DNA of 64,000 bases from a virus, in the IMG/VR virus record IMGVR_UViG_3300037487_000323, positions 1 to 64,000 of that record; one strand, written 5' to 3'. This document shows, in pieces, positions 7,848 to 54,236 of the stretch. The stretch's first letter is position 1. Each line of letters opens with the position of its first letter. The position numbers and the translations under genes are program-made. The notes beneath the pieces were generated by a model that worked only from the letters and a program-made list of their open reading frames with translations, made no database searches and had not been told where the DNA came from.

Positions 7848-7876
7848 TTGACAAGCTCCGGCAAGATGTGTAAAAT
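7848..7876 (+). promoter_or_regulatory. Strong sigma70-type promoter of the first rightward gene
   Basis: TTGACA (7848-7853) is followed after exactly 17 bases by TAAAAT (7871-7876). Transcription would start near 7883 and give a leader of about 80 bases carrying the GTAGGAC palindrome before the ATG at 7965. This is the first promoter of the early arm. Confidence 0.8.
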
Positions 7877-7897: not shown

Positions 7898-7933
7898 CAG
7901 CTGAATAAAACAACGTAGGACACCGTCCTACAC
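7898..7933 (+). repeat. Direct repeat, left copy (pairs with 8701-8736)
   Basis: The 36 bases from CAGCTGAATAAAAC onward match 8701-8736 with three differences, two of them just before the palindrome and one in its loop. The copies flank the gene at 7965-8711. In the right copy the first bases encode the gene's last codons and stop; in the left copy they lie in the leader. Confidence 0.8.
7915..7931. repeat. Dispersed palindrome GTAGGAC-ACC-GTCCTAC, copy 1
   Basis: Perfect 7-base arms flank a 3-base loop, in the 5' leader of the gene at 7965. The 45 or so bases from here to GGAATA are identical to the leader at 11072-11117. This is one of eight copies in the early arm. Confidence 0.9.
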
Positions 7934-7964
7934 CACTAATTAAATAAATAAATAGGAATACAAC

Positions 7965-8711
7965 ATGAAATCAACTAACATCGAATCAACAACCGTAAAA
8001 GCTATCGCTTTGTTAAATGTTGCGCTTACTACGCTTGCAAGAATCAACAATAACAACGACGCAGAAACACTCAGAAGAGAATGTATTGCTTTTCGCAATA
8101 CTTTAGATATAACACCGTGCAAACTGGGTAACTACACAATGCCTAAAGGCTATCAAGATTTCATTGATAGTCAAACAACGGGAGCGACTTCTGATATCAG
8201 AAGTCGTAGGCAAGCAACAACTAATTCAATAATAGCATGTTTTGCACTTGACAAAAAAGGTTCAAGAACAGCTGCTTATTTAAAAGAAGCTTTAAAGGGC
8301 AAAACAGCCCTTGAAGCAATTAGCCCGCTCGAGTGGGCGGTGCTTAAGACAAAAGTAAACTTAGCAGAAAAGAAAGCTAAAGAAGCGCGTGACACAATAA
8401 AAGCTAAAGAAGCACAAGCTAAACTTGACGCTTTAACACCAGCAGCAGCAGCAGCAGCAGCACCAGCAGCACCAGCAGCAGCACCAGCACCAGCACCAGC
8501 AGCACCAGCAGCACCAGCACCAGCACCAGCAGCACCAGCACCAGCAGCACCAGCACCAGCAGCAAATAAAATAAGTTTTAAGGCCCGGTTTACTCCCGAA
8601 ATTATGGCAGAAGCAAAAACAGCTATTATTACCGTAGTCGATACTTATGGTATTCCCACGGCTGTGGCTATTGCTAGAATGATATTGGCTCAATACGAAT
8701 CAGCTGAATAA
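7965..8711 (+). CDS. First early gene: Ala/Pro-linker protein, unknown function
   Basis: This encodes 248 residues. An N-terminal domain (1-155) is helical and ends in a Lys/Ala-rich helix (EKKAKEARDTIKAKEAQAKL). A low-complexity linker of about 45 residues (about 158-202) made only of Ala and Pro follows, then a compact C-terminal segment (about 203-248, SFKARFTPEIMAEAKTAIIT). The two domains look tethered by the rigid linker. It has its own strong promoter and terminator, so it is a monocistronic, probably abundantly made early product. It may bind nucleic acid or host proteins, but no motif shows this. The linker DNA is a GCA/CCA microsatellite and may vary in length. Confidence 0.8.
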   Translation: MKSTNIESTTVKAIALLNVALTTLARINNNNDAETLRRECIAFRNTLDITPCKLGNYTMPKGYQDFIDSQTTGATSDIRSRRQATTNSIIACFALDKKGSRTAAYLKEALKGKTALEAISPLEWAVLKTKVNLAEKKAKEARDTIKAKEAQAKLDALTPAAAAAAAPAAPAAAPAPAPAAPAAPAPAPAAPAPAAPAPAANKISFKARFTPEIMAEAKTAIITVVDTYGIPTAVAIARMILAQYESAE

Positions 8712-8736
8712 AACCCCGTAGGACAACGTCCTACAC
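8701..8736 (+). repeat. Direct repeat, right copy, with dispersed palindrome copy 2 (8718-8734)
   Basis: This matches 7898-7933. It includes GTAGGAC-AAC-GTCCTAC at 8718-8734, just after the stop of the preceding gene and upstream of its terminator, so here the palindrome is in a 3' UTR. Confidence 0.85.
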
Positions 8737-8776
8737 TACCAACTAATAGCCGTGAATAGGCTATAATAAACCTACT

Positions 8777-8804
8777 AAGCCCCGTTAATTCGGGGCTTTT
8801 TTTT
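8777..8804 (+). terminator. Rho-independent terminator after the first early gene
   Basis: The stem AAGCCCCG / CGGGGCTT (8777-8784 and 8791-8798) has a 6-base loop and is followed by T8 (8797-8804). It ends the monocistronic transcript from the 7848 promoter. Confidence 0.93.
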
Positions 8805-8833
8805 GCCTAAAATTCCTTATACCACGCCTTGCG

Positions 8834-8866
8834 TTATGACTGCTCCCTTTGTGACGGTGAGCATGG
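8834..8866 (+). repeat. 33-base direct repeat, copy A
   Basis: It begins TTATGACTGCTCCC and ends GTGAGCATGG, and is identical to 8994-9026. Confidence 0.95.
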
Positions 8867-8993
8867 CTTTTCTAGCGAGGTAGCATGCTCTTTATAAGGC
8901 GTTTTAAGGCGAGTTAATACATTGGGCAGGGTTTGAAATTATCGGGGCTTAAAGGGCATGCTAGTTAAAATCACCCTAACATAAAAAATTCGC

Positions 8994-9026
8994 TTATGAC
9001 TGCTCCCTTTGTGACGGTGAGCATGG
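8994..9026 (+). repeat. 33-base direct repeat, copy B
   Basis: Identical to 8834-8866, 160 bases downstream of it. Confidence 0.95.
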
Positions 9027-9096
9027 ATGCAGGGCGGAGTCGGTGTTAGATATCCTGTATCTGCCAACAATTTACGGCATCAAGTTGCATCTAAAT

Positions 9097-9362
9097 AGAC
9101 TTTGGAGCAACGGGAAGGCACGGACGGTAAGGGATAAAAAAAATAGGTCTTATTATTATTATTATTATAAATATATATATATAAAGGAAAAAGATTTTCA
9201 TTTTTAGTCGAAAATAACGTCTTTTATCAGCGGCTTTTGTCTTTTTTAGTTTTTTGTCTTTCTTTCTTCGCTCATTTCCCCCAAACATTTATAACTGCAT
9301 TTAATTACCCACCTAATACCTACACACTGCGTCTTTAGTGACCTCCCCTTGCTCCAAAGTCT
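9097..9362. repeat. 14-base inverted repeat bounding an A/T-rich segment
   Basis: AGACTTTGGAGCAA at 9097-9110 is the exact inverse complement of 9349-9362. The 238 bases between hold the TTA and TA microsatellites. The arms could form a long-range stem or mark element ends. Confidence 0.85.
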
Positions 9363-9400
9363 TCGGAGGTATATTTTCCAACCCGTAATTGTTGACAGAT

Positions 9401-9430
9401 TTGCCTATTTAGCCCCAAAAAGGTTATAAT
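9401..9430 (+). promoter_or_regulatory. Probable promoter for the 9495 gene
   Basis: A consensus TATAAT lies at 9425-9430, with TTGCCT (9401-9406) 18 bases upstream as a moderate -35. A better TTGACA at 9392-9397 is 27 bases away, which is too far. The start would be near 9437 with a leader of about 60 bases. Confidence 0.5.
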
Positions 9431-9494
9431 ATGCCCTCAAAACGCAATGAGATTTTCCACTCACACAGAAGTCCCAAAAGACACCTAAATAGGT

Positions 9495-10829
9495 ATGAAT
9501 ATGTTAGATAAGAAAACACCCTCCAGCCCAGAGTACATGCACCCTGCGGTCTATAAAAGGCACTACAAAGAAGCACTAAGGCTAAACAGGCTATATGCGA
9601 ATGAGTATCAATGCTACAGAAGAAAAGTAAGGAAACATCAGTCCCCTGCCTACATAAAAACCCAAAAAGCTCAGCTGCAAACAATTGCAAAGCAAGTCCA
9701 ATATCAAGATAAGAAGAATGCAATCATAGATGAGCTAACAGATATGGTGTGGTATACGTACATAAGCCCGACAGCGACCACACTGACTATTAAAAAGGTA
9801 TACGTAAACAAGTTAGTGCGCGATGCGTTAAAAGAGGTAGGACAACGTCCTACGCAAACGAGGGTATTAACTCAAGAAATGCTACATGACACTTTATATT
9901 ATGATGCAGAGCTAGGTACGTTTGAGTGGCAAGAAGGTAATAAGGCGGGCAAACAGGTAAACCTCTCTAAACCCAAAACACCACCTAAAAAGCTACGCAA
10001 GCAGCACGAGTACACACTACCCTTAAAATCACGCTCTTATATGCCATCACATGCAGGGTATAAGATAATAACAGAGCGAGAATACGTAGATACCCTAGCA
10101 GGCATAAAGAACAAGCAAACGACATGGATTGATGTAAAGGGCATGTATAAAAAGACAGATACATCAATGGAACACGTGCATAAGCGGCAATACTTGGTAC
10201 GTACAAGGAAGGAGCGAGGCAAGCCAGCACCACTAGAAGCCACTGAACGGGTGACATATTATATAAAGAGTATTGCTGCTACTAATTCAAATCCCAATCT
10301 CAAGATAACGCTATGGGGGAAATCATACCCCGTTGTATGGCTCGCAACACTGTACATGGGAGCAGGTGGCGACTGGGACTATTCCAGTGGACTGGATAAT
10401 ATAAAAAAGAACTCTGACCACGTCATGACTGCTCCTCATGGACTACGCCAATACAATCACAAAACCAACAAGCCTATGCAAACTAAGCCGCGTGATGGGG
10501 ACTGGTATAACCTCAAATGGGACAACATCAAGCCTGCTGAGTTTAGTACTGCATCAATAATAAAAGCACCAAGCGACACAAAGCCCAAACCCAAGCTATC
10601 GACTAACACATACTCACCCAAGCGTAACATAAAAAAAACCTACATAGCTCATGACCCGATGAATCCGAGATGGGCAGTAAATGTAGCAGGTAGAGTAAGT
10701 TATGAGTGGAGTGAGGCAGATGCAATGAGAGTCTATGAGGATAATATAAAGGCACTACGCGGCACTAAGCGTATGCTAAAGAACAAAACACTTATGGTGA
10801 CACGAGTGGGCGGGAGTAAGTTTTACTAG
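9495..10829 (+). CDS. Unknown 444-residue basic protein, weakly HNH-endonuclease-like
   Basis: The protein is strongly basic, with many Lys and Tyr. The segment LHDTLYYDAELGTFEWQEGN (about 130-149) resembles the opening of phage HNH homing nucleases (LLSYDPETGxFTW). GKSYPVVWLATLYMG (about 275-289) resembles their HRLAWLYMTG segment. The catalytic DH and N that should follow are not clear, so it may be a degenerate nuclease or a DNA-binding derivative. It carries palindrome copy 3 inside the frame, read as VGQRPT. A second ATG at 9501 has better spacing from the AGGT at 9491 and may be the true start. Confidence 0.7.
   Translation: MNMLDKKTPSSPEYMHPAVYKRHYKEALRLNRLYANEYQCYRRKVRKHQSPAYIKTQKAQLQTIAKQVQYQDKKNAIIDELTDMVWYTYISPTATTLTIKKVYVNKLVRDALKEVGQRPTQTRVLTQEMLHDTLYYDAELGTFEWQEGNKAGKQVNLSKPKTPPKKLRKQHEYTLPLKSRSYMPSHAGYKIITEREYVDTLAGIKNKQTTWIDVKGMYKKTDTSMEHVHKRQYLVRTRKERGKPAPLEATERVTYYIKSIAATNSNPNLKITLWGKSYPVVWLATLYMGAGGDWDYSSGLDNIKKNSDHVMTAPHGLRQYNHKTNKPMQTKPRDGDWYNLKWDNIKPAEFSTASIIKAPSDTKPKPKLSTNTYSPKRNIKKTYIAHDPMNPRWAVNVAGRVSYEWSEADAMRVYEDNIKALRGTKRMLKNKTLMVTRVGGSKFY
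9837..9853. repeat. Dispersed palindrome, copy 3 (inside a gene)
   Basis: GTAGGAC-AAC-GTCCTAC has perfect arms and lies within the coding frame of the 9495 gene. Confidence 0.9.
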
Positions 10830-10838
10830 GAGATGGTA

Positions 10839-11021
10839 ATGACACAAGAAGAGCGAGATAAGGTAATAGAGATGCTGGTATCTAATTGGAAGCACAGCAC
10901 ATCTACAACAGCAACTAAAGCATTTTGGGTAAATTTTTATAATAGCTATACAGATGAGGACTTATTAGAAGAACTACTAAACCCATACAACAGAAGACGC
11001 TTGACAACACCCGACAACTAG
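10839..11021 (+). CDS. Small protein, MTxEER family, unknown function
   Basis: This encodes 60 residues starting MTQEERDKVIEMLVSNW. I chose the ATG at 10839 because AGGAG (10829-10833) is then correctly spaced; the ATG at 10833 overlaps it. It resembles the product at 12992 (MTPEERERAIQIM) and more weakly that at 13638 (MNSLTQEQRRVMVKTI), including a (T/S)DE(D/A)LL segment and an Asn-Pro near the end, so these are paralogues. Its 3' end overlaps the promoter at 11001. Confidence 0.65.
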   Translation: MTQEERDKVIEMLVSNWKHSTSTTATKAFWVNFYNSYTDEDLLEELLNPYNRRRLTTPDN

Positions 11022-11029
11022 CGTATAAT
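11001..11029 (+). promoter_or_regulatory. Consensus sigma70 promoter (class with ATATGTCCTGTAGTTT)
   Basis: TTGACA (11001-11006), a 17-base spacer and TATAAT (11024-11029) are all consensus. ATGTCCTGTAGTTTGA follows directly; nearly the same downstream string follows the promoters at 13235 and 14928. The promoter lies inside the 3' end of the preceding gene. Confidence 0.92.
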
Positions 11030-11071
11030 ATGTCCTGTAGTTTGAAGAAAGAGAAGAAACACCCACCCGCT

Positions 11072-11088
11072 GTAGGACACCGTCCTAC
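11072..11088. repeat. Dispersed palindrome, copy 4 (5' leader)
   Basis: GTAGGAC-ACC-GTCCTAC lies about 40 bases downstream of the transcription start of the 11001 promoter. The following leader to GGAATA is identical to that of the 7965 gene, including the TAAATAAATAAATAGGAATA tract. Confidence 0.9.
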
Positions 11089-11123
11089 ACCACTAATTAA
11101 ATAAATAAATAGGAATAAAGACA

Positions 11124-11477
11124 ATGACAAAAAGAACATTTAAAGTATCACACATTACCACATGTGGTACACAATATTTCAGGGGACAACACCTCCCCAC
11201 CTTTCAGATAAGCGTCACAGGCAACACTACTTATAAAGAAATGCTAGGCATGTGCCTAGAGTGGCAGAACACTGACCACCTTCGGTGGTTATTCCGTAAC
11301 AACGAAGATTACAATGCCTTTAGAGATGCAATAACTGAAATGTTCTCTACTGTTGAGGACATGGACACTGCATTCCAACCAGACCTAGACAGCCCAGATA
11401 CAGAAGAAGAGTGGGAGTACTGGGACGTGTGCGCATTCTTTGTAGTAGAGATATTAGGAGAAGATGATGAACTATAA
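11124..11477 (+). CDS. Hypothetical acidic protein
   Basis: This encodes 117 residues, acidic in the second half (DSPDTEEEWEYWD), with no membrane segment and no motif I recognise. It is the first gene after the 11001 promoter and uses a leader duplicated from the 7965 gene, so the two may be expressed alike. It overlaps the next gene by about ten bases. Confidence 0.7.
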   Translation: MTKRTFKVSHITTCGTQYFRGQHLPTFQISVTGNTTYKEMLGMCLEWQNTDHLRWLFRNNEDYNAFRDAITEMFSTVEDMDTAFQPDLDSPDTEEEWEYWDVCAFFVVEILGEDDEL

Positions 11478-12069
11478 AGACTTAACAGACAGCGCAAAGG
11501 AGTGCGCTTATAAGAACTTTCAGGAGTATAACAGTGGAGAAGGGTTTGGCTTTCAGGTAGAGAGCATCCTAGAAGATTGCCGTGACATGATAGAGACTAA
11601 GGGCATCTATGAGCCTGTATTTAGTTACTCAGGCTTTCACTCTCAAGGGGAGGGCGCATGTTTTACGGGGAATATAGACTTAAAAGATTTCCTTGATGCA
11701 CACCCTGAAGTGCGTAATAACCACCGAGAGCTGTACATAGCAGTCATACCTTTTGGGGGTAAAGAACCTGCGTGTCGTTACTTCGACATAAACCTAACCC
11801 GTAGGACGATGTCCTACAACCACGAGAACACCGTACACTTAGTGGCATGGGACTTTGAGGTAACAGGTGCAGGGTGGGATGATGCTAACAACGGGTACTA
11901 CGAGAAGCTCTTTGTAGATGCAGAAAAAGATATAGAAGAAACATGCAGAGACTATATGCGGCAACTGTACCGCACACTGGAGGAAGCTTACGAGTACTCA
12001 ACAAGCTTAGATGCATTTCTTGAGCAGGCAGAGTTTCAAGACTTTAATGAGAGTGGAGAGTTATCATGA
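11467..12069 (+). CDS. Conserved phage protein with SGFxSQGxGA motif, unknown function
   Basis: This encodes 200 residues from the second ATG, chosen because AGGAG at 11456-11460 is then six bases away. The start NYKDLTDSAKECAYKNFQEY and the later YSGFHSQGEGACFTGNI match a family widespread in phages, sometimes annotated as an antitoxin-like protein without experimental support. The function is unknown. It contains palindrome copy 5 in frame (read as RRTMSY). The C-terminal part (about 130-200) is helical and acidic. Confidence 0.75.
   Translation: MNYKDLTDSAKECAYKNFQEYNSGEGFGFQVESILEDCRDMIETKGIYEPVFSYSGFHSQGEGACFTGNIDLKDFLDAHPEVRNNHRELYIAVIPFGGKEPACRYFDINLTRRTMSYNHENTVHLVAWDFEVTGAGWDDANNGYYEKLFVDAEKDIEETCRDYMRQLYRTLEEAYEYSTSLDAFLEQAEFQDFNESGELS
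11801..11817. repeat. Dispersed palindrome, copy 5 (inside a gene)
   Basis: GTAGGAC-GAT-GTCCTAC has perfect arms and lies within the frame of the 11467 gene. Confidence 0.9.
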
Positions 12070-12299
12070 AGGACGTAACGGGAGTTCGCATAATGGTGTT
12101 AGTATACCCAGTTGATATATATGATAGAGAAGATGCCGAGAATATAGAGAATAATATATACAGTATTGAAGAACTAGAATCAGTTATACCTGACGATGTG
12201 CAAATGTTTACCCTTACAGACTTTATGGACGCTTGCAATAATGAGGATATTTCTCTTGAAACCTCTTGGATAGGCTATATTCGGGAGTACATGGCATGA
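12066..12299 (+). CDS. Hypothetical acidic protein
   Basis: This encodes 77 residues, strongly acidic and Asn-rich (IYDREDAENIENNIYSIEEL). It overlaps the preceding stop (ATGA) and the next gene (ATGA), so it is translated as part of the 11124-12517 operon. No recognised domain. Confidence 0.65.
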   Translation: MKDVTGVRIMVLVYPVDIYDREDAENIENNIYSIEELESVIPDDVQMFTLTDFMDACNNEDISLETSWIGYIREYMA

Positions 12300-12517
12300 T
12301 AGGTATAGCATTTGCAAGGACAAGTATGGAAGGTGTCTATGGAATAACACCTAATAAGATGTATATGAGCACGAAGTGGGACGCAGAACATGAATGGTCT
12401 ATGACCATTCTAAATGACGACGGGTTCGAGATGTTTATACTAGAAAAAGAATGTACCTTTTTAAAAGGCGGGAACTGGGAGTTTATAAGACCCAGCGAAC
12501 TTGGAGAATTAATTTAA
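12296..12517 (+). CDS. Hypothetical small protein
   Basis: This encodes 73 residues starting MIGIAFARTSMEGVYGITP. The ATG at 12296 overlaps the previous stop as ATGA, which favours it over the in-frame TTG at 12266. The rest reads as a small beta-rich domain (WSMTILNDDGFEMFILEKEC). It is the last gene of this operon. No recognised family. Confidence 0.65.
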   Translation: MIGIAFARTSMEGVYGITPNKMYMSTKWDAEHEWSMTILNDDGFEMFILEKECTFLKGGNWEFIRPSELGELI

Positions 12518-12707
12518 AAAACAAAAACCTGAGCTGAGCAGGTGGGGCAACCTTTTCCTCAGACAGCCGTAAATTAACGAGTGGGCTGTGTCAATAACCG
12601 TTAAGCTTAAGGGAGTGATATACCTATTATGTACAAAACCCGTTGCTTGCCTTAAGATCCCAACCATTACGGGATATACCGTATAACCTAACACACAGGA
12701 TAAAACA
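12518..12707 (+). ncRNA. Candidate structured leader or small RNA (four ordered hairpins)
   Basis: This 190-base gap has no ORF but shows four successive inverted repeats: ACCTG/CAGGT (12527-12531, 12539-12543), ACAGCC/GGCTGT (12563-12568, 12584-12589), CTTAAGG/CCTTAAG (12606-12612, 12650-12656) and TACGG/CCGTA (12668-12672, 12679-12683). The gap ends at the ATG at 12708, so it could be a 5' leader or a free RNA. No tRNA cloverleaf and no T-run are seen. The folding is by eye only. Confidence 0.35.
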
Positions 12708-12995
12708 ATGAGCGCACAATCAGATATAAGAAGTACAGGTGAGACTAAAGAAAGATCAGATGCGATTAATCGCATTATGCAAACATACGCACAAGCAATA
12801 GTAGACCGTAACGCACATGTGGCTAAGTTACAGGGACTTACTTGTATTTTAGTATTAGCTTTAGTATGCACAGTAGGTGTAAGCAGGTGGGTAATATATA
12901 AATCAGGAGCTAATACTGTATGTGAACAGCAGTCATATACCCAAGCCCAACCAGCGCACAAAAAGAGTGGGTTAGACTATACCATAAAGCCATGA
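12708..12995 (+). CDS. Single-pass membrane protein, unknown function
   Basis: This encodes 95 residues. A charged N-terminal 40 residues precede one hydrophobic helix (about 43-64, LTCILVLALVCTVGVSRWVIY), then a polar tail. The arrangement suggests an inner-membrane anchor with the N-terminus in the cytoplasm. It follows the structured non-coding segment and overlaps the next gene by ATGA. No family recognised. Confidence 0.65.
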   Translation: MSAQSDIRSTGETKERSDAINRIMQTYAQAIVDRNAHVAKLQGLTCILVLALVCTVGVSRWVIYKSGANTVCEQQSYTQAQPAHKKSGLDYTIKP

Positions 12996-13177
12996 CCCCC
13001 GAAGAACGGGAGAGAGCCATTCAGATAATGGCAGATAGGTACACAATCAGATATGAGAAGTACCATGTGGATAAAAGAAGGGCGTTAGAATATGCAACGT
13101 TTCACTACAACTTATACTCGGATGAAGCACTACTGAGCCTTATCATTAACCCTAAAGACCACAAACTTATACTCTGA
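12992..13177 (+). CDS. MTxEER-family small protein, C-terminus altered by a tandem duplication
   Basis: This encodes 61 residues beginning MTPEERERAIQIMADRY, a paralogue of the product at 10839. A 55-base tandem duplication (13111-13220) lies across its 3' end. Because 55 is not a multiple of three, the frame enters copy two shifted and ends early (DHKLIL, stop). The frame in copy two would have given an ending NHKDHNVYPTT with a stop inside the TTGACA of the next promoter. The present product is therefore probably a recently altered form. Confidence 0.65.
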   Translation: MTPEERERAIQIMADRYTIRYEKYHVDKRRALEYATFHYNLYSDEALLSLIINPKDHKLIL

Positions 13178-13220
13178 TGAAGCACTACTGAGCCTTATCA
13201 TTAACCATAAAGACCACAAC
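13111..13220 (+). repeat. 55-base tandem duplication
   Basis: Copies lie at 13111-13165 and 13166-13220, beginning CTTATACTC and differing at three positions. The event shifts the frame of the 12992 gene. Confidence 0.95.
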
Positions 13221-13234
13221 GTATACCCTACCAC

Positions 13235-13263
13235 TTGACAAGTAAAGACAACTACTGTATAAT
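13235..13263 (+). promoter_or_regulatory. Consensus sigma70 promoter (same class as 11001)
   Basis: TTGACA (13235-13240), a 17-base spacer and TATAAT (13258-13263) are all consensus, followed by ATGTACTGTAGTTTGA. It drives the 13347-14918 genes. Confidence 0.92.
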
Positions 13264-13318
13264 ATGTACTGTAGTTTGAAGTAACGCCTCACCCTCTTAA
13301 GGGGTTGCATAACATAAC

Positions 13319-13335
13319 GTAGGACGATGTCCTAC
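13319..13335. repeat. Dispersed palindrome, copy 6 (5' leader)
   Basis: GTAGGAC-GAT-GTCCTAC lies between the 13235 promoter and the ATG at 13347, ending just before the AGGAG of that gene. It could influence translation start. Confidence 0.9.
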
Positions 13336-13346
13336 AGGAGACTGAC

Positions 13347-13625
13347 ATGATAACAATAAAAACAAATAAACAATACAGATCTATTCTTACATGGGAGGAC
13401 TTAACCCCAAAAGAACAAAAAGAATATGACTTTAGGGGCAAAGAGTACAGCTCGTATTTTAGGTATAGGAACTGGGTGTACACCCTTGAGGATTTTATGC
13501 GGACTAACGGGAACGATACCTTAAACAAATGGGACGGGTATCTCGGAGATAGTTTTTTTAGTGGCATCCTTGTGAAATACAGTAACTGCGGTGATGCAGT
13601 TATGGTTGGAACTTATTATAGTTAA
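13347..13625 (+). CDS. Conserved small phage protein, unknown function
   Basis: This encodes 92 residues. The segments LTPKEQKEYDFR and SYFRYRNWVYTLEDFM match a small family I have seen in many phages with no assigned role. It is first in the operon from the 13235 promoter, with a clear AGGAG ribosome-binding site 3' of palindrome copy 6. It is probably soluble. Confidence 0.75.
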   Translation: MITIKTNKQYRSILTWEDLTPKEQKEYDFRGKEYSSYFRYRNWVYTLEDFMRTNGNDTLNKWDGYLGDSFFSGILVKYSNCGDAVMVGTYYS

Positions 13626-13637
13626 TTGGAGAATGAA

Positions 13638-13823
13638 ATGAACAGCTTAACACAAGAACAAAGACGTGTAATGGTAAAAACAATTGCTCGTGATAGAGCA
13701 GAAAGAGCCTCAAGCGAGGAGCTAATGGCACTGTATACCCAAACTCAAATAGATGAGATATGGGACGACTACGAAGGCGATAAACAACTAATGCAACTAC
13801 TAGAGGAATGCAACAATGACTAA
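13638..13823 (+). CDS. Small helical protein, unknown function
   Basis: This encodes 61 residues, helical and acidic (MNSLTQEQRRVMVKTIARDR). The ATG at 13638 is chosen because GGAGA lies just upstream; the longer frame would need a TTG. It overlaps the DUF3150-like gene by eight bases. The N-terminus is weakly like the MTxEER paralogues at 10839 and 12992. Confidence 0.65.
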   Translation: MNSLTQEQRRVMVKTIARDRAERASSEELMALYTQTQIDEIWDDYEGDKQLMQLLEECNND

Positions 13824-14679
13824 CATAAAATCACTATCATCATCAGCCATGCTGGTGGAACTTAACATCAGCCTATGGACAGCTCGCAAGCTGGACAAAA
13901 AGGTATCTAATGACGTAGATATCAGTAACAGCACACGTACTAAGGCGGGGAATTACCACAAGAACCTGTTAGCAGGTGACGAGTCGCTGTCAGCTATACA
14001 GAAATTAGCTGGGTTTATCAGAACTTACCATATGTCGGTAACAAGCCCTTGGAATGATGCAGGGCAACGGCTGCTAAGTACAGGTATGTTTATCACATAC
14101 CGCCAAGAAATGTCACGCTTAGAGAACGAGTACTGGGGGCTAGTCAATCAGTTCTTACCTGAGTATGGGGTAAAGATTAGCGCAGCAGCGTTCCAGTTAG
14201 GCGCATTGTTTAATAGGGATGAGTACCCTGACGTAGATCAGGTACAGCATAAGTTTGGCATGTCAGTGCGATATACCCCAGTGCCTGAGTCTGGGGACTT
14301 TAGGGTAGATGTAACCAACGAGGCTATGAATGACCTAAAAGACCAGTACGACATGGTATACAAGTCTAACCTAGACAAGGTAACTAAGGATGCGTGGGAC
14401 AGGTTACACAAGGTCTTAACACAGCTTTCATTCGGGCTACGTACTGATGAGGACGGCAAGCAGGGCAAAATCTACAGCTCAGTAGTAGAGAACGCTCAAG
14501 AACTATGCAATATGCTGACTTATTTTAATGTATCAGGGGACACACAGTTAGAGGCTATGCGTATTAAATTAGAAGATACTATGATGGGGCTTGATGTTAA
14601 GGACATTAAGGACTCAGATTATATCAGGGGCACAGTTAAGCATACTGTAGATGCAATGTTAGACAAATTTAATTTTTAA
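13816..14679 (+). CDS. DUF3150-like protein, partner of the AAA+/VWA pair
   Basis: This encodes 287 residues. The start AMLVELNISLWTARKLDKKV, then LFNRDEYPDVDQVQHKF and VPESGDFRVD, match my memory of the DUF3150 family, which in phages regularly precedes a MoxR/CobS-type AAA+ ATPase and a VWA protein. The same order is seen here at 15376 and 16546. It is largely helical and probably a substrate or adaptor for that complex; no catalytic residues are evident. It is co-transcribed from 13235 through 14918. Confidence 0.7.
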   Translation: MTNIKSLSSSAMLVELNISLWTARKLDKKVSNDVDISNSTRTKAGNYHKNLLAGDESLSAIQKLAGFIRTYHMSVTSPWNDAGQRLLSTGMFITYRQEMSRLENEYWGLVNQFLPEYGVKISAAAFQLGALFNRDEYPDVDQVQHKFGMSVRYTPVPESGDFRVDVTNEAMNDLKDQYDMVYKSNLDKVTKDAWDRLHKVLTQLSFGLRTDEDGKQGKIYSSVVENAQELCNMLTYFNVSGDTQLEAMRIKLEDTMMGLDVKDIKDSDYIRGTVKHTVDAMLDKFNF

Positions 14680-14690
14680 GGAGAGCAGTT

Positions 14691-14918
14691 ATGAGAGCAT
14701 TAGTAAGTTTTTTTGTAGTAGTTATAGCGTTAGGGTTAATATGCGGATCAGTGTCAGCAGCTAAGGTAAGTGATGCAGAACGCCATGAGATATACAACAA
14801 ACAGTTTGCTAAAGAGGAGACTGAGTTAGATAAGCTGATGAACGACCACTTCGGGAGTTGGAAATGCTACGATATACCCCCATGTAACCAGCTTGTAGAT
14901 GCAAATGGGGAGGAGTAA
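14691..14918 (+). CDS. Small exported protein with signal peptide
   Basis: This encodes 75 residues. A typical signal peptide occupies residues 1-24 (MRALVSFFVVVIALGLICGS then VSAA), with likely cleavage after Ala23 or Ala24. The mature part is about 51 residues, charged, with two cysteines in WKCYDIPPCN that could form a disulfide. It would act in the periplasm or envelope, for example in superinfection exclusion, but that is a guess. It is the last gene before the 14928 promoter. Confidence 0.7.
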   Translation: MRALVSFFVVVIALGLICGSVSAAKVSDAERHEIYNKQFAKEETELDKLMNDHFGSWKCYDIPPCNQLVDANGEE

Positions 14919-14927
14919 GAGCAGGGG

Positions 14928-14956
14928 TTGACAACTACCCTATAACCCTGTATAAT
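14928..14956 (+). promoter_or_regulatory. Consensus sigma70 promoter (same class as 11001)
   Basis: TTGACA (14928-14933), a 17-base spacer and TATAAT (14951-14956), then ATGTACTGTAGTTTAG. It drives the 15044 gene and probably the AAA+/VWA module. Confidence 0.92.
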
Positions 14957-15009
14957 ATGTACTGTAGTTTAGATAAAGTCTCATCCACTTAAAGGATTGA
15001 ACCCAACCC

Positions 15010-15026
15010 GTAGGACGATGTCCTAC
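15010..15026. repeat. Dispersed palindrome, copy 7 (5' leader)
   Basis: GTAGGAC-GAT-GTCCTAC lies between the 14928 promoter and the ATG at 15044. Confidence 0.9.
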
Positions 15027-15047
15027 ACAACTAGGAAATTGACATGA
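15025..15047 (+). repeat. Duplicated translation-start leader (second copy 15358-15380)
   Basis: The 23 bases around CTAGGAAATTGACATGAA, including the ribosome-binding site and ATG, recur exactly at 15358-15380 in front of the AAA+ gene. The two start regions share one origin. Confidence 0.9.
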
Positions 15048-15310
15048 ACAACAACAAATTAGTAGGCGCAGTAATTTCATCAATGGTAGAAAAATTTCAA
15101 GTTATTGAAATTAAGGTTTTAAATGTAGAGGAGGGTCGCTTAGCAACGAGTGACTATAAAATAACTATTTTGCTCGGTCAAGGTCAGCAGATAAGTTTAG
15201 TAATAAACTACCACGCTCGAATCAAAGAGCTGACAGTAAAAAACAATAGTATTACAGCGATGAGTATTAATGCGCTGTCGTACATTGAATCAATTACAGC
15301 GGGCTTTTAA
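15044..15310 (+). CDS. Hypothetical small protein
   Basis: This encodes 88 residues with alternating hydrophobic residues that suggest a beta-rich fold (YKITILLGQGQQISLVINYH). No signal, membrane segment or known motif is seen. It shares its start leader with the following AAA+ gene and the same promoter, so a link to that complex is possible but not shown. Confidence 0.65.
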   Translation: MNNNKLVGAVISSMVEKFQVIEIKVLNVEEGRLATSDYKITILLGQGQQISLVINYHARIKELTVKNNSITAMSINALSYIESITAGF

Positions 15311-15375
15311 GATTAAACCCCAACCCAAGGCCGTTATGAGCGGCCTATACCAACCACCACAACTAGGAAATTGAC

Positions 15376-16449
15376 ATGAAAAAACCATACAGCAGTATAT
15401 CCATGCAAGAAACCATCAGCCTTATTAGTAAGATAGGCGACACACTAACAGTTCTAGTACAAGGAGAGATGGGTATTGGTAAGAGCAGCATACTTAAGTC
15501 TCTAGTAGAGATTTACCCCAACCATATACCCTGCTACATAGATATCACAACTAAAGATGTAGGTGACTTCCTTGTACCACAGATACGTACCCTTGATGGT
15601 ACACCTGTATGCTCCTTTATACCCAACGAGGAGTTTGGCTTTCACTTAAACAAACCGCTTATACTTATGTTAGATGAGATAGGTAAAGCAGGTAAAGCAG
15701 TCATGAATGCCTGCTTGCGTTTAATGTTAGAGCGTAAGTTAGGTATTCACTCACTACCAGAAGGCTCAATTGTATTCGCTACAACTAACTTAGCGGCAGA
15801 GGGTATTGGGGATAACTTACCGCCCCATGCTAGAAACAGAGTGTGTGTAGTCAAGATGCGTAAGCCTACGGCGGAGCAGTGGAGATGGGACTATGCTCAG
15901 AACGCTGGTGTTGACCCTGTAGTAATAGCAACAGCTATTGAGTACCCGTCTATGTTTGGTAGCTTCGAGGACTATGAACGCCCTGATATGAACGAGTATA
16001 TCAATGACCCACGTGTACCTAGAGCTGCATTTGTTACACCACGTTCAATGGAGAGAGCATCCGACATACTCAAGAGATGCCGCGATATGCCTGAAGATGT
16101 ACTAACACATGCCTTGTTCGGTGTAATAGGTGAGAGGGCTACTATGGATATGATAAATATTCTTAAGCTGGATAATCAAATGCCCGCGTGGTCAGAGATC
16201 ATAAACAAACCATCTACTACTATTATCCCGCCTAACGGTGCGGCTGTGTGTCTTGTAGTTAGTAAGGCATTAAGTAATGTAGTAGCTGAAACATTCGATG
16301 TATGGATGACGTATTTAGCTAGGATGCCACGAGAAGCCCAAGCCTTGTTCGCTATGGGTGTGATGTCAAACAAGAGCCCTAAACGTACCATAGCAGTGAC
16401 TAACAAGATGTTCACTGCATATGCTGTATCTCAAGGTTATTTATTCTAG
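15376..16449 (+). CDS. MoxR/CobS-type AAA+ ATPase
   Basis: This encodes 357 residues. Walker A is GEMGIGKSS (30-38), Walker B LILMLDE (95-101), and a sensor-1-like FATTN follows near 135. The order and spacing match MoxR/CobS ATPases, which act as chaperone-like remodelers with a VWA partner. The next gene supplies that partner (HExxH plus MIDAS). CobS-like genes are known in other phages, where their function is unsettled. The ATG is supported by a leader duplicated from the 15044 gene. Confidence 0.88.
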   Translation: MKKPYSSISMQETISLISKIGDTLTVLVQGEMGIGKSSILKSLVEIYPNHIPCYIDITTKDVGDFLVPQIRTLDGTPVCSFIPNEEFGFHLNKPLILMLDEIGKAGKAVMNACLRLMLERKLGIHSLPEGSIVFATTNLAAEGIGDNLPPHARNRVCVVKMRKPTAEQWRWDYAQNAGVDPVVIATAIEYPSMFGSFEDYERPDMNEYINDPRVPRAAFVTPRSMERASDILKRCRDMPEDVLTHALFGVIGERATMDMINILKLDNQMPAWSEIINKPSTTIIPPNGAAVCLVVSKALSNVVAETFDVWMTYLARMPREAQALFAMGVMSNKSPKRTIAVTNKMFTAYAVSQGYLF

Positions 16450-16459
16450 GGGGTGTGTA

Positions 16460-16549
16460 ATGGCAATGACAAAAGAAGAAAGAAGAAAGAAGAAAGAAGA
16501 ATGTATGAGGCTAAATACAGAGCCGCAAATCCAAAGGAGAATACCATGA
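16460..16549 (+). CDS. Possible 29-residue basic peptide
   Basis: The ATG at 16460 follows a GGGGG string and the frame ends at 16549, overlapping the next ATG as ATGA. The product begins MAMTKEERRKKKEECMRLNT and is very basic. Support is only its position between two coupled genes and the stop-start overlap; it could be a leader peptide or chance. Confidence 0.35.
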   Translation: MAMTKEERRKKKEECMRLNTEPQIQRRIP

Positions 16550-17706
16550 GTTTATCAGCAGAAGATAAAATCACTAAAGCCCATATAGCACTAATGCAAC
16601 ACAAGACTACCCTAGCGTACTCAGGGCTGTTAATGGTAGGTAAGGCAGAGATTAAAGATGGTTGTCCTACCGCCTGTACTAATGGGCGAGATGTTATCTA
16701 TGGTAGGGCATTTGTTGAGGGTCTTACTGACCAAGAAGTACGGGGGCTAGTCTTACATGAAACAAAGCATAAGATATACCAACACCTATTTACATGGCGC
16801 AAACTGTATGACGAGGATGCACAGTTAGCCAATCAAGCGTGTGATTATGTGATTAACCTAGAGATCAAAGACCTTAACCCTTACGAGGATTTCATCAAAT
16901 TACCAGCAGGTGCATTAATAGACGAGTGCTATAGGGGCTTAGATAGCGGCGAGGTATTTGCACGGTTGAAGCAGGATAAGAAAGACGGTAAGGGTAAAGG
17001 AGGTAAGGGTGAACCACTAGATGAGCATGACTGGGAGGGAGCACAAGCATTAGGTGAGGAAGAACAGAAAGAGTTAGCCAAAGAGATAGATGCCGCTATT
17101 AGAACAGGTGCACTACTAGCGGGTAAACAGGGGGGCGATGTTGATAGGAGCTTTGATAGCCTCATGCAGTCTAAAGTTGACTGGGCTGAGCAGCTAAGAG
17201 AGTTCGTATCATCGACCTGTGTAGGTAAGGGTGACAGTACATGGGCTAAGCCTAATAGACGTTGGTTACAGCACGATATGTACTTACCTAGTCAGATCAG
17301 TGAGAGTATTGGTAGCATCTGCGTAGCAGTAGATACATCGGGCAGTATATCAGGGGAGGATATAACAAAGGCATTGTCAGAGATCGTAGCTATATGCGAT
17401 AATTGTACCCCTGAAAAGATTGACCTGTTGTACTGGGATACTCAGGTTGCCTCTCATGAGCAATATCATGAAGGTAGTTATAGTGGGCTAATGACCTCTA
17501 CAAAACCTAAAGGTGGGGGTGGGTCATCGTCACTGTGTGTATTTGGCTATGTGCTAGAGAACAAGCTAGAGCCTCAATGCCTTATCTTAATTACTGATGG
17601 GTATATTGAGTACCCAACACAAGCTCCTACGTACCCAGTTATATGGGTAATGGTAGGCAATAAAAATACTGTACCTGCATTTGGGGTAGTGATACAGGTG
17701 GATTAA
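16546..17706 (+). CDS. VWA protein with N-terminal metallopeptidase-like domain (CobT/DUF2201 type)
   Basis: This encodes 386 residues from the ATG at 16546, chosen for the AAGGAGA site just upstream; a longer frame from GTG 16453 is less likely. An HExxH motif (HETKH, about 71-75) lies in the N-terminal domain. A Lys/Gly-rich linker follows (about 145-157), then a von Willebrand A domain with MIDAS DTSGSIS (about 263-269) and a later ITDGYIE. This is the partner usually encoded after MoxR-type ATPases. Whether it is an active protease is unknown. Confidence 0.85.
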   Translation: MSLSAEDKITKAHIALMQHKTTLAYSGLLMVGKAEIKDGCPTACTNGRDVIYGRAFVEGLTDQEVRGLVLHETKHKIYQHLFTWRKLYDEDAQLANQACDYVINLEIKDLNPYEDFIKLPAGALIDECYRGLDSGEVFARLKQDKKDGKGKGGKGEPLDEHDWEGAQALGEEEQKELAKEIDAAIRTGALLAGKQGGDVDRSFDSLMQSKVDWAEQLREFVSSTCVGKGDSTWAKPNRRWLQHDMYLPSQISESIGSICVAVDTSGSISGEDITKALSEIVAICDNCTPEKIDLLYWDTQVASHEQYHEGSYSGLMTSTKPKGGGGSSSLCVFGYVLENKLEPQCLILITDGYIEYPTQAPTYPVIWVMVGNKNTVPAFGVVIQVD

Positions 17707-17921
17707 TGACAGTACGCATAGACTTAAAACTTAAGCAGATGACTTCCCTAGATGATGTTGTTACTAAGCTAGGGGATATAGTACATTTTGAGGATTTATC
17801 CGACCTTGACCCACCTATACCAGAGAGAATGGCTTTGCTTAAGATTAGTGTAGCTAAAGATATTATCCCTAATATAGGTACAAGATTAGATGACACCACA
17901 TATATAGTCCACGAATTATAG
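17706..17921 (+). CDS. Hypothetical small acidic protein
   Basis: This encodes 71 residues, with an ATG that overlaps the preceding stop (TAATG). It is acidic (VHFEDLSDLDPPIPER) and has no recognised motif. Tight coupling to the VWA gene suggests a link to the AAA+/VWA module. Confidence 0.6.
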   Translation: MTVRIDLKLKQMTSLDDVVTKLGDIVHFEDLSDLDPPIPERMALLKISVAKDIIPNIGTRLDDTTYIVHEL

Positions 17922-17934
17922 AGAGCAGTCATGA

Positions 17935-17956
17935 GCGTAGGGCGATTGTCCTACGC
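17935..17956. repeat. Dispersed palindrome, variant copy 8
   Basis: GCGTAGG and CCTACGC form perfect arms around GCGATTGT. It is a diverged version of the GTAGGAC element, in the leader of the 17976 gene. Confidence 0.75.
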
Positions 17957-17975
17957 AAATTAATCAGGAGTTAAA

Positions 17976-18638
17976 ATGAGAATAAAACTAACACCAGAAC
18001 AACTTAAAGAAAACCGTAAAGTTGCAAGTAAGATATACAGGGACAATATGCCTCTTGAAATGCGAGCAAAGATCGCCGATAGCAAACGCAAGGGCGCAGA
18101 GAAACGTAAAGTGCAAGCCAAAGAAGAACGCGCAGCGTACTACCAAGTAAACAAAGAACACATGAATGCCAAGTCTAAAGAGTATCACAGGAAGGCGCGA
18201 GAAAAGATCGCAGCTGAGAAAGCAGCGGGCATAAATGTACCACCAACAGCACATGCACCCAGAGTACGCAAGGTTATGAACCAACCTGCAGGCATGACTA
18301 CGCTCAAGGATGAGGCGAAGAAAATGGGTATAGCGACAGCGCACTTAAGAACTATACAGAAAGATGCTAGGTTTAACATGCCTAAGTCTAAGATGTTACG
18401 TATAGATGGTATGGAGTTGTTTGATATCTATGAGATGGCAGCTTGGCAACAGCAGTATAGAGAAGTTCTGGCACAAGAAACAATATCAGGAGCATCAAAG
18501 AACAAGAAAGGCATAACTCTAAGTAAAGACGTAATACTAATCATCAACTGGCTACAAGCATCAAAACACATAACTAAATACTGCAACACCCAGCGCGTTG
18601 CAATTAATTCAAACCAATTTTGGGCGAGGTGGGCGTGA
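17976..18638 (+). CDS. Basic, probably DNA-binding protein, unknown function
   Basis: This encodes 220 residues. The first 80 are extremely basic and helical (SKRKGAEKRKVQAKEERAAY). About 105-150 (TTLKDEAKKMGIATAHLRTI onwards) could hold a helix-turn-helix. A basic nucleic-acid binder is likely from composition, but no family was recognised. It has its own leader with palindrome copy 8 and overlaps the next gene by TGATG. Confidence 0.7.
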   Translation: MRIKLTPEQLKENRKVASKIYRDNMPLEMRAKIADSKRKGAEKRKVQAKEERAAYYQVNKEHMNAKSKEYHRKAREKIAAEKAAGINVPPTAHAPRVRKVMNQPAGMTTLKDEAKKMGIATAHLRTIQKDARFNMPKSKMLRIDGMELFDIYEMAAWQQQYREVLAQETISGASKNKKGITLSKDVILIINWLQASKHITKYCNTQRVAINSNQFWARWA

Positions 18639-31466: not shown

Positions 31467-34400
31467 TTACCTCGGATAAAACGTATCTCTGTTTAACCTG
31501 CGCACCTCAGATAAAATATTTTTTTCCTGTTGGTCTAAGCTCCTTAACCGCTCTGCTTTTCGTCTAGCACTAAGGGTTTCATCTGCATGTGTACGAGTTA
31601 CTTCTTTTCTAACTTTACCTAAAGATTTTTCTATAGAAGTTATAGCCCCTTGTGCCTGCATCATAGGTAAATGTTTAACCCTATAGTCTTCTGCATGTGC
31701 TGGGTCTGTAATTAGCATTCGTTTATAGGTTCCATATACGCCCTCAACGCCTTCCTTCCAGTTAGCTAATATCTCTCTTAAAGCACTTTGTTTTTTCTCA
31801 GATAAAAATTTACCTGCTCCGGGAACTAGCCGTACATTTTCTTTAGTAGTTCTTTCAGCATGTTGGTTCCCACCAAAGTATTTCTCTTTAGCAAGATCAG
31901 TTGTAGATAATATAAAAGTACCTAGAAACCCTGAATAGCCTTTAACTAGGTAGTCAAACCTAATACCTGAAAGTCCTAAGTGTTCTCCTACCCATTTTCC
32001 AAGGTTTGATGTTGTATCAGGATTATATTGTTGTGCAGCATCTAAGGGTAAAAGCTCAGAACCTAAAATAGGTTTTCCTGTAAGGGAGTTTTTATCAGTT
32101 ATTACATCATACAAAGGTTTAATAGCATTTATATTTAAAGGGTTAAAGTTACCTAATGAGGCAATAACAGCGGCTTGAATAGCTATCTTTGTATCTCTAG
32201 GAGTATTTGAATTTTCTTTTACTAGAGAGTCATATATGTACCTAGTAATTACTATAGGCAGAGTATTTATACTAGGACGAATAGGTAATGCTACATCTGA
32301 CTTAGTACCAAAGATATATAGTTTAGTATCTTTGTCTTTATTAGAGATATCATCATCGTCATCAGTACCTGCTAACATATTATATAGAAGACTAAAAGCA
32401 GCAAACTGAACCCCTGTACTAACTAAGGTAGCTAAAGCTCTTTTTCTTTCTATAGGTGCAATACCCGTTCCATTTAAAGTCCTCAGTGCAATATTAGTTA
32501 CTTGGAGGTATGCACCAAAAAAGGCCACACTCTGTCTAGCTGCAGTTATACCTGCACTAGCTCCCTTCCTTCTAAAGTTGATAATCTCAAAAGCTCTTTC
32601 TGAAGCAAGACGTTCATTCTTTGTCTCCGCCATAGTACGTGCATATACAGCTTGTCTAATAGCGTTATCCCCTATAGAAGAGAAATGTGCTAAGTTATAT
32701 CTAAGCCGACTCCACCACCCAGATTTAGTATCTGATATAGGTGCTTCCCAGTATGTAGCTTCTTTGTCCCCTGATTGAGATATAAACTCTTCCCCTGCTG
32801 CACCGATTGCTTTTAGGGCAGTTCTAGCTTTAGTTTCAGGAATGTACCTAGAAACCGCTTTAGGAGTAAAAAACCCTTCCCTAGCAAACGTCAACGCAAA
32901 CTCTTTAGTTACATAGGGGATCAGTGCCACTGGGTTTCTTAAGTTTGACGTTACCATAGCATCTATAGTGTCATCGTGTAATTGAGCTAGAGTAAACAAA
33001 GGATCGAGTACAATGGTAGCTCTTAAAAACTTAGACACAGGAGCAAAAACCATTTTTATAATAGCAGATTTAACGGTTTCGCCCCCTTTAAAAGCAGGGA
33101 TAAATAAAGGGTCTTTAAGGTTATAAAACTCTTTAATCCCTGAACGATATATAGGAATTACATTAAGGCCGTCTTTACCACTAGCTACTTGCTCTACTTC
33201 TCCGTTAGGTAAGAAAGCGCGAGCAGCATCAACCATCATTCTAGCTTTTTGAACTCGCATAGCCATAACACTAGTGTTAACCATAAAAGAATGGATGTTA
33301 CTTATAACATCAACTGCTCGCTCACTACCTTTAAATGCATGTAAAGCTGTACCAGTAACAACACCATGCCCTCCATTAAACATAGACTCAAAAGCTGCAT
33401 CAGGATCAACAGTCTCCATTATCCTGTTTAGAGGTACATAAGATACAAACCCCATGTAATTATTAGCTTGTGTTTTAGTAACCCTTCCTGAAGACACTAG
33501 TAAATCAACCATCTGTTTACGTATATGGTTCCATGTATCTATAGGGCCATTAGGAGCAAAGAACTCAGGAGTAGTAGTACGAGCATCACCTACAATAGCG
33601 TTTGCCTGAACTTCTGTAATACCTTGTGTTTTTGCTATTTCGGGCTTTAGCACATTATTTTTAAAGTATGATCGCGCCCGTTTCTCTGCAGGAGTTGTAT
33701 CAGGCATAGAGGCTAAATCAGCTTCATACCCCTTAACTATGTCAAATATTTCTAACATGCGTCTAGCTACCATAAGCTTATTAAAACGCTCCCGAACTTT
33801 ACCCTCTGTGTCCGTGTGTACTTTTGCTATGTCTACTAACGATTGTTTTAAAGAATCAATATTATGCTTAGAAGCTTCAATAGAGAACTTACCTATATCA
33901 TCTCTATACTTAATATACCCTATATGCGAAGCCTGTTCCGCTAAGAATAATTCATGGGCTGCTTGAGAGGACTCTACTTCTACAATAACTTTTTCAATGT
34001 CTTTCATAGAAATCCCTTGTGCTCGCATGTTCCTTCTTATCTGATTAACAAACCTAGCATTTTCCCGCATTACATAAGTCTCTATTAAATCTAAAGTCTT
34101 AGGTAAGACACTAGTCCCTTTTTCTGAAGTACCCCATATAGATTCTAATAAAGATTTCTTTGTAGGTGTTACTCTTTTAGCTTTCTCATCCTGAGTATAT
34201 TGGGCAGACTCAGCAGATTCTAAGGGTAAGGAGTAACGTATATCATCATTTTCAGCAGAAAACGCACCTGTGTTACCAGACTCAGGAGTAAATACAGTAC
34301 CTTCTAAAGAGTTCAACCAAGTATGCATAGTTTGCGTAGGTAAGAAATCTCTATTTTGTAAAAAGAATCTCTTTAATGCTTGACCTAATCTTTGGAAAAA

Positions 34401-51197: not shown

Positions 51198-52409
51198 TTA
51201 TGCTGATATGGCTAATGTGCTTTGACGGCCTCCAGCTACCTTAGACCAAGTGGTTAATGAACCTACTTGTTTAGGGCTTGAGTAGTTAGTTATATTACCT
51301 AGACCTAACTGACCTTGAGCATTATATCCCCAAGACCAAAGTATATTATCGGTTTTAGTGGCTATGGTGTGGTAGGACCCTGCAGTGATGTTAAGCCAAG
51401 TGGTTAAACTACCCACTTGTTTAGGGCTTGAGTATCTGGTTGTAACACCTAGTCCTAACTGACCTTGAGCATTATATCCCCAAGACCATAATGTACCATC
51501 AGTTTTAGTGGCTAAGTTGTGGTAAACCCCTGCAGTGATCTTAAGCCATGTGGTTAATGAACCTACTTGTTTAGGGCTTGAGTAGTAAGTGGTATTACCT
51601 AAACCTAACTGACCATAATAATTATATCCCCAAGACCATAGCGTACCATCGGTTTTAGTGGCTATGGTGTGCGCTTGTCCTCCAGATACAATATACCAAG
51701 TAGTCAATGAACCAACTTGTTTAGGGCTTGAGTAGCCAGTTATATTACCTAAACCTAACTGACCTTGAGCATTTCTTCCCCAAGACCATAGCGTACCATC
51801 TGTTTTAGTGGCTATGGTGTGGAAGGACCCTGCAGTGATGTTAAGCCAAGTAGTTAGTGAACCTACTTGTTTAGGGCTTGAGTAGTTGGTAATATTACCT
51901 AGACCTAATTGACCATAAGGATTATATCCCCAAGACCATAGCGTACCATCGGTTTTAGTGGCTATGGTGTGGTAGAACCCTGCAGTGATGTTAGACCAAG
52001 TGGTTAAACTACCCACTTGTTTAGGGCTTGAGTAGTAAGTTCTATTACCTAAACCTAACTGACCATAATAATTATTTCCCCAAGACCATAGCGTACCATC
52101 GGTTTTAGTGGCTAAGGTGTGGTAGCCCCCTGCAGTGATTTTAAGCCATGTGGTTAAACTGCCAACTTGTTTAGGGCTTGAGTAGTTGGTAATATTACCT
52201 AGACCTAACTGACCATTAGTGTTTAGTCCCCAACTGTATAATCCACCAAAAGGAGCTAAATTACCAGCAGTAGGCCACTGACCTTGTTTGATCCAATACC
52301 CTGCTTGCTCCATTGTCCATATACCCGAAGCTGTACTTGATTGGTATGGGCCACTTGGTGTTACTGGGTTTACAGCAGTTATTACGCCCGCAGGGTATTT
52401 CGTTGACAT
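51198..52409 (-). CDS. RCC1-repeat seven-bladed propeller, tail-fibre/receptor-binding candidate (C)
   Basis: This encodes 403 residues. An N-terminal 60-residue anchor has the tail-protein motif ASGIWTMEQAGYWIKQGQWP. Seven RCC1 blades of 50 residues follow, each built as xNxxGQLGLG, NxTxYSSPKQVGSLTTW, xxITAGxxHTIATKTDG and TLWSWG, the last shortened. Seven blades close a propeller. Blades are near-identical except at fixed variable positions. One blade lacks the conserved Asn (VTTRY), and one has KTDN. It is paralogous to the genes at 54232 and 55387. It is likely displayed on the tail, with the variable loops binding host surface. Confidence 0.85.
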   Translation of the reverse strand: MSTKYPAGVITAVNPVTPSGPYQSSTASGIWTMEQAGYWIKQGQWPTAGNLAPFGGLYSWGLNTNGQLGLGNITNYSSPKQVGSLTTWLKITAGGYHTLATKTDGTLWSWGNNYYGQLGLGNRTYYSSPKQVGSLTTWSNITAGFYHTIATKTDGTLWSWGYNPYGQLGLGNITNYSSPKQVGSLTTWLNITAGSFHTIATKTDGTLWSWGRNAQGQLGLGNITGYSSPKQVGSLTTWYIVSGGQAHTIATKTDGTLWSWGYNYYGQLGLGNTTYYSSPKQVGSLTTWLKITAGVYHNLATKTDGTLWSWGYNAQGQLGLGVTTRYSSPKQVGSLTTWLNITAGSYHTIATKTDNILWSWGYNAQGQLGLGNITNYSSPKQVGSLTTWSKVAGGRQSTLAISA

Positions 52410-52411
52410 AT

Positions 52412-54163: not shown

Positions 54164-54175
54164 AAGTTTTATAAG

Positions 54176-54236
54176 TTTAGGGTTTGGGTTTTATGGGTGC
54201 AGTATATATCATAGCTTTTAGGGTTTGGGTTTTATG
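54176..54236. repeat. 20-base direct repeat between propeller B and the sulfotransferase gene
   Basis: TTTAGGGTTTGGGTTTTATG occurs at 54176-54195 and 54217-54236 (41-base period). The second copy covers the stop of the propeller gene. This is the only gap of note in the fibre locus and may mark a past insertion or rearrangement. Confidence 0.85.

Follow-up and report, generated by a model that had tools for sequence, protein, structure and literature searches.

The eight short palindromes found in the early arm of a freshwater virus infecting bacteria probably serve as double-stranded DNA operators. Their regulator would be a dimeric phage protein, most likely encoded by the first early gene (gene A), that blocks transcription shortly past the promoter. 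The window, by which we mean the whole 64-kb stretch of DNA that was analysed, belongs to a virus record of 65,386 bases, and the full set of palindromes is confined to a ~10-kb stretch at ~7.9-18 kb. The initial annotation had offered an operator, an RNA hairpin, and a mobile palindrome as possibilities; of these, the operator gains support from the positions of the sites, the replacement of the dyad in relatives, and its co-variation with gene A in one clade, all of which, like the sites themselves, are observed in the sequences.

A scan of the window recovered seven exact copies of GTAGGAC-N3-GTCCTAC (Table 1) and, as the eighth site, the variant GCGTAGGGC-GATT-GTCCTACGC, which has a 4-nt centre and GC-extended arms, all at the positions given in the initial annotation. 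Its grouping of the centres was also correct, with ACC or AAC in 7.9-11.1 kb and GAT in 11.8-15 kb, as was its account of the placement: five sites lie upstream of genes (7915, 11072, 13319, 15010, and 17935), one follows a stop codon (8718), and two are intragenic (9837 and 11801). Outside these sites, no copy with two or fewer mismatches is present anywhere in the 64 kb, including the late arm, where the initial annotation had noticed none, and allowing three mismatches adds a single match, at 51442. In the 3-mismatch scan, dinucleotide-shuffled sequences gave a mean of 2.01 matches and a maximum of 6, with eight or more in 0 of 100 shuffles; the observed number was thus never reached.

Table 1. 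Positions of the palindromes (dyads) and neighbouring features in the window
Feature	Position	Strand	Remark
Sigma70-like promoter of gene A	7848..7876	+	11/12 consensus bases
Dyad, centre ACC	7915..7931		gene A leader; ~+33 from inferred start
Gene A	7965..8711	+	first early gene, 248 aa; candidate dyad-binding regulator
Dyad, centre AAC	8718..8734		7 nt past gene A stop
Terminator-like hairpin with T run	8777-8804		downstream of the 8718 dyad
Dyad, centre AAC	9837..9853		within ORF 9495-10829; retained in nearest relative
Sigma70-like promoter	11001..11029	+	12/12 consensus bases
Dyad, centre ACC	11072..11088		leader of ORF 11124-11477
Dyad, centre GAT	11801..11817		within ORF 11464-12069
Sigma70-like promoter	13235..13263	+	12/12 consensus bases
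Dyad, centre GAT	13319..13335		leader of ORF 13347-13625
Sigma70-like promoter	14928..14956	+	12/12 consensus bases
Dyad, centre GAT	15010..15026		leader of ORF 15044-15310
Variant dyad, centre GATT	17935..17956		precedes ORF 17976-18638

A scan of viral contigs found the motif in multiple copies in one other contig, a 21,176-base record with seven exact and two one-mismatch sites and a tenth site that has a 4-nt centre; 39 other viral stretches contain one exact copy each, which was taken as chance. The backbones of the window and this nearest relative are ~94-96% identical over long stretches, and each of the eight window sites is matched by one in the relative, which carries at least one extra site. 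The set is thus kept in the closest relative, whereas more distant relatives bear other dyads. All seven exact sites of the window and all seven of the relative have ACC, AAC, or GAT as the centre when read along early transcription, although these 14 sites are not independent because they are mostly orthologous. At two sites, the 60-base flanks have diverged (62% and 63% identity at 7915; 58% and 37% at 8718) and the dyad is identical, indicating selection on the site itself.

The position of the dyads relative to promoters is informative about how they could act. A classical operator is expected to overlap its promoter. At a threshold of 10 of 12 consensus bases, the window has exactly four plus-strand promoters with 11-12 matches, and each of them, unlike any other promoter above the threshold, has a downstream dyad, 39-56 nt past the -10 box, corresponding to ~+33 to +50. 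In a survey with a simple promoter score of 178 sites from 28 loci, some of which are mutually related, a -10 box ends within 90 nt upstream of 53 sites, compared to 8% of random positions, and the commonest distance between -10 box and dyad is 36-41 nt. Only 8 of the 178 sites overlap a promoter (control, 3.4%), and a recognised promoter within 90 nt upstream is missing at 125. In one group of loci (L061, L062, and L064), the order is reversed, and several dyads score as preceding a promoter-like match by 8-13 nt. In the cultured relative Pag-Yong1, a promoter match is within reach of none of 29 sites, which either speaks against linking the dyads to sigma70 promoters in general or stems from the high GC content of this genome. 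Where they trail strong sigma70 promoters, at ~37-55 nt and seldom with overlap, the dyads are placed to act on polymerase just after the start of transcription.

Under the proposed mechanism, a strong promoter of host type would drive gene A immediately. The protein, predicted to act as a dimer, would bind the dyad at ~+33 in the gene A transcript, the one directly past the gene A stop codon, and those at ~+37 to +50 behind the remaining strong early promoters. The bound protein would block or stall host RNA polymerase soon after initiation. Such a roadblock would make gene A self-limiting and shut off the early genes, so that autoregulation and early-gene shut-off could be achieved by a single protein. 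Binding, dimerisation, repression rather than activation, and the roadblock itself are all inferred, and the gene A protein may instead operate by activation, antitermination, or DNA organisation.

Related loci were gathered by means of the MoxR ATPase gene at 15376-16449, taking the best 80 of 93 relatives, and a locus was counted when a single dyad with arms of 6 bp recurred in it in three or more dispersed copies. Such a dyad is found in 42 of these best 80 loci, whereas the control with mirror repeats gave 0 of 80, and 2 unrelated loci out of 39 had one; the 42 include three loci with a GCACCA type that is not regarded as the same kind. Apart from the close relative, GTAGGAC is absent from these best 80 loci, and many of them bear a dyad of their own. 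There are ~16 sequence types, in which the lumping of near variants is a matter of judgement, including AGGATATAC-N-GTATATCCT (seven copies), TCGTTAC-NN-GTAACGA (eight copies with invariant arms and a free centre), TTTCCCAC-N-GTGGGAAA, GGGTAC-NN-GTACCC (11 copies), TTTCATAC, and GTAGTAT (L051). When whole records are viewed, the dyads of the relatives cluster in the early region. Of the 40 loci whose dyad type was assigned, 23 have a copy of their own dyad no more than 150 nt ahead of the MoxR start codon; since this position is kept and the sequence differs, the dyad set has been replaced in place. The site and its regulator thereby look like a lock and key that change jointly between viruses. 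One further relative (G002) has two exact copies of its own dyad type. A recurrent dyad of this kind is absent from G007, G008, KPP25, HTVC027P, 023Pt_psg01, and DSL-LC04, and no convincing one was found in G014, G015, G016, and HTVC023P, nor in Rollin, where N runs in the record filled the candidate list.

Planktothrix phage Pag-Yong1 (L196), a cultured relative whose terminase is 49.6% identical, carries GGTTCAG-N-CTGAACC at 15 exact sites within the 50 kb that were examined, compared to none in 20 mononucleotide shuffles, and at 29 sites with two or fewer mismatches. Many of them lie ~22 nt upstream of a start codon and 4 nt past a stop codon, and the first early gene is also flanked by dyads. 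Its sites separate many early genes, and further ones occur in the late part; the GC content of the stretch, 69%, is odd for a Planktothrix phage. Another cultured phage, Rhizobium phage RHph_TM3_14A (L133; record positions 12000-60889), has its own dispersed dyad, TTACCT-N4-AGGTAA, with 10 exact copies and ~31 with one or fewer mismatches across early and late genes.

Gene A, the likely regulator, was assigned in 30 of the 40 typed loci. Because the assignment rule begins at the first dyad, the leader dyad of gene A is partly built into it, unlike the position of the downstream dyad, which lies within 7 nt of the stop codon in 9 of the 30 loci and within 300 nt in 26. Co-variation was examined in a single clade, whose 12 loci carry three dyad types. 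In the N-terminal part of gene A, identity is 70% between loci sharing a dyad and 49% between loci with different dyads, whereas three backbone genes show 83-89% and 80-85%, respectively, a gap of 3-4 points. The excess for gene A persists after regression on backbone identity, with a permutation p of 0.0005, although permutation p values are optimistic and serve as a guide only because the sequences are related. Six families were compared, all found in 9 or more of the 12 loci; a strong dyad-tracking excess is seen for gene A only (0.150, the next being 0.023), and another fast-evolving family of the clade has none. In places, C-terminal parts of gene A are common to loci with different dyad types (L113 and L099), so that dyad specificity seems to reside in the N-terminal part. 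The window and its nearest relative have the same dyad, and residues 2-128 of their gene A proteins are mostly kept, but not the Ala/Pro-rich linker near the C-terminus and the C-terminus itself. A contig obtained later by protein search, and not used in forming the idea, has seven GGGTAC-type dyads, with those of gene A located 23 nt before the start and 3 nt after the stop.

The structural model of one gene A protein (L124; mean pLDDT 79) shows an N-terminal long helix and two helix-turn-helix-like helices; the model for the window protein is poor (pLDDT 59.9). Counting against the proposal, one same-dyad member (L089) has a rather different HTH-like segment. A Foldseek search of the L124 model against PDB and BFVD gave no match at E <= 0.001, and its best VIA-align hit, a chorismate-mutase-like helical domain with Z 6.2, is in the range common to helical proteins. 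No Pfam domain was detected in gene A and a PHROG search gave nothing convincing, except that the C-terminal part of the L118 protein has a marginal match to a late-transcription coactivator (E 0.016 and 0.0075). The L124 and window proteins had no tblastn match in cultured phages. Profile comparison between gene A groups also detected no homology, suggesting that one position may host several protein families. Three relatives come from contigs binned into environmental genomes, one of them labelled Methylophilaceae and one beta proteobacterium, which is a weak indication of the host; the contig with seven GGGTAC-type dyads is among the three.

The dyads could also be operators of another regulator, encoded by the phage or the host, which we consider unlikely. 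This possibility arises from gene A having no recognised DNA-binding family and from its binding being putative, but gene A is the only strong dyad tracker among the six families. The binder suggested by the initial annotation, the HTH_17 protein at 27492, fails to track the dyad, having a nearly identical recognition helix in phages with different dyads, and was rejected. Very unlikely, in turn, is the idea that the palindromes are mobile elements or recombination joints spreading for their own sake. It draws on two window leaders, at 13319 and 15010, where homology with the nearest relative covers the promoter, leader, and dyad, extends through the start codon, and ends there; in the relative, the 13319 leader precedes a different gene, and the 15010 leader directly adjoins the MoxR ATPase gene. 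A leader cassette is found at different genes in the two genomes, and a gene swap behind the leader is clear at two of the eight sites common to both. However, the homology breaks past the start codon rather than at the dyad, which implies that the dyad moves as part of a leader cassette; moreover, there are no scattered decayed copies elsewhere in the window, and the entire set is spelled differently in relatives. The proposal of a mobile palindrome in the initial annotation therefore survives only in part: self-mobility is unsupported, whereas cassettes of promoter, leader, and dyad have apparently been shuffled between genes. In addition, a 42-base stretch around the variant dyad (17918-17959) recurs at another gene of the nearest relative with 88% identity, as if the site had been copied.

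Hairpins in the RNA of early leaders and 3' ends, bound by protein or protecting the mRNA, might be expected from the facts that nearly all sites are transcribed, that many are located in 5' leaders, behind stop codons, or a short way ahead of start codons, and that the loops would be mainly 3 or 4 nt. Compensated pairing should then be visible at deviant sites, but in a scan allowing two or fewer mismatches, which takes in a few likely chance matches of short-armed types, 67 of 85 deviating arm positions are unpaired, 14 form G.U, and 4 are still paired; the G.U share of 14/81 equals the one-in-six expectation for random single changes. Pairing is thus kept no better than by chance, which disfavours the hairpin reading of the initial annotation. 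RNA is also unable to pair its innermost bases across a centre of 1 or 2 nt, and in the dyad types with such centres the innermost pair, C..G, T..A, or A..T, is always complementary, which fits a dimeric protein on double-stranded DNA. We therefore regard RNA hairpins as a distinctly unlikely explanation. Hairpin promoters for a virion RNA polymerase are known from the early region of phage N4, where they are described as dyads with a 3-nt loop (PMC4496689). The stems of ~7 bp and the 3-nt centre at seven window sites are similar, and a 2376-aa protein resembles the N-terminal part of the PHROG virion RNA polymerase family (E 8.5e-8; profile positions 192-595 of 3406). The polymerase part is, however, unmatched, with the caveat that the RNA_pol family search gave no match in controls either, and the giant protein fails to track the dyad. 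Unlike N4 promoters, the variant at 17935 has a 4-nt centre, other dyad types in relatives have 2- or 4-nt centres, separate consensus sigma70 promoters are present upstream of four sites, and the 8718 site has a stop codon on one side and a terminator-like hairpin on the other. By this comparison, we consider it very unlikely that the dyads are a set of N4-type promoters.

Repeated sites outside promoters have precedents. The repressors of cluster A mycobacteriophages such as L5 and Bxb1 are described as using many short stoperators outside promoters (PMC6550527, PMC9283540), with 20-30 asymmetric 13-bp sites genome-wide that are oriented with transcription; binding halts elongating polymerase, stoperators are found near the regulator gene, site and regulator diverge jointly, and the phages carry integrase or parABS prophage genes. 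The present system similarly has many sites outside promoters near a candidate regulator gene, and co-divergence of regulator and site, here in one 12-locus clade. It differs in that the window sites are symmetric 7-3-7 dyads, that there are ~7-10 sites mostly in the early arm (the eight of the window within ~10 kb), and that the gene A candidates match no known family. Genes for integrase, resolvase, and ParA (PF00589, PF00239, and PF13614) were found in none of 12 records, some of which may be incomplete, and the lack of the ParA partner (PF13614) also distinguishes the dyads from ParB-parS centromeres. The comparison suggests that the dyad system would work most like cluster A stoperators, without their asymmetry, number, and prophage genes.

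In PeSL cassettes, an early promoter is joined to a stem-loop terminator. They are repeated early-promoter cassettes of T4-type phages with genes swapped behind (PMC4503421, citing the original papers). The leader cassettes may resemble them in having exchanged genes behind early promoters, as is clear at two of eight shared sites, but the dyad lies in the leader downstream of the promoter, with no T run directly behind it. The SAS/ESAS repeats of cluster K mycobacteriophages occur before some non-structural genes and are partly inverted repeats; each SAS is an asymmetric 13-mer, 3-7 bp away from a start codon, and ESAS have imperfect arms of 17 bp (PMC3203893). Repeats ahead of a subset of genes are common to both, whereas the window sites are not asymmetric 13-bp repeats at the start codon. 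By these feature tests, the dyad system is neither PeSL nor SAS/ESAS. No account of such a system was found among the listed matches when open-licence PMC papers were searched for early palindromes of virulent phages, for the named relatives, and for Methylophilales phages.

A broader idea, which is possible but rather doubtful, is that a repressor-operator system operates in phages that lack lysogeny genes and radiates in specificity like immunity groups. A resident gene A protein would silence the early genes of newcomers with the same dyad, and escape would come from a changed gene A together with changes of all dyads in place. If true, uncultured phages without signs of lysogeny would provide many naturally matched pairs of regulator and operator specificity, with ~16 types, and it would become directly testable how a regulator and its whole operator set change together and whether repressor-like immunity lets lytic phages keep out related ones.

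Other features of the window are worth recording. Between gene A and the next gene, a 33-base direct repeat occurs at 8834-8866 and 8994-9026, followed by an AT-rich TTATTA/ATATAT tract near 9150-9200, which has a similar counterpart in two relatives (G002 and G005); together they are a possible replication origin. On the minus strand, 31467-38597 encodes the 2376-aa virion protein, which has an N-terminal transglycosylase domain, and the late genes at 51198-55474 are rich in repeats. A Pfam scan of 60 window proteins found three with RCC1 repeats and one sulfotransferase, and GGTAAT/ATTACC palindromes are recurrent at 51888-55474.
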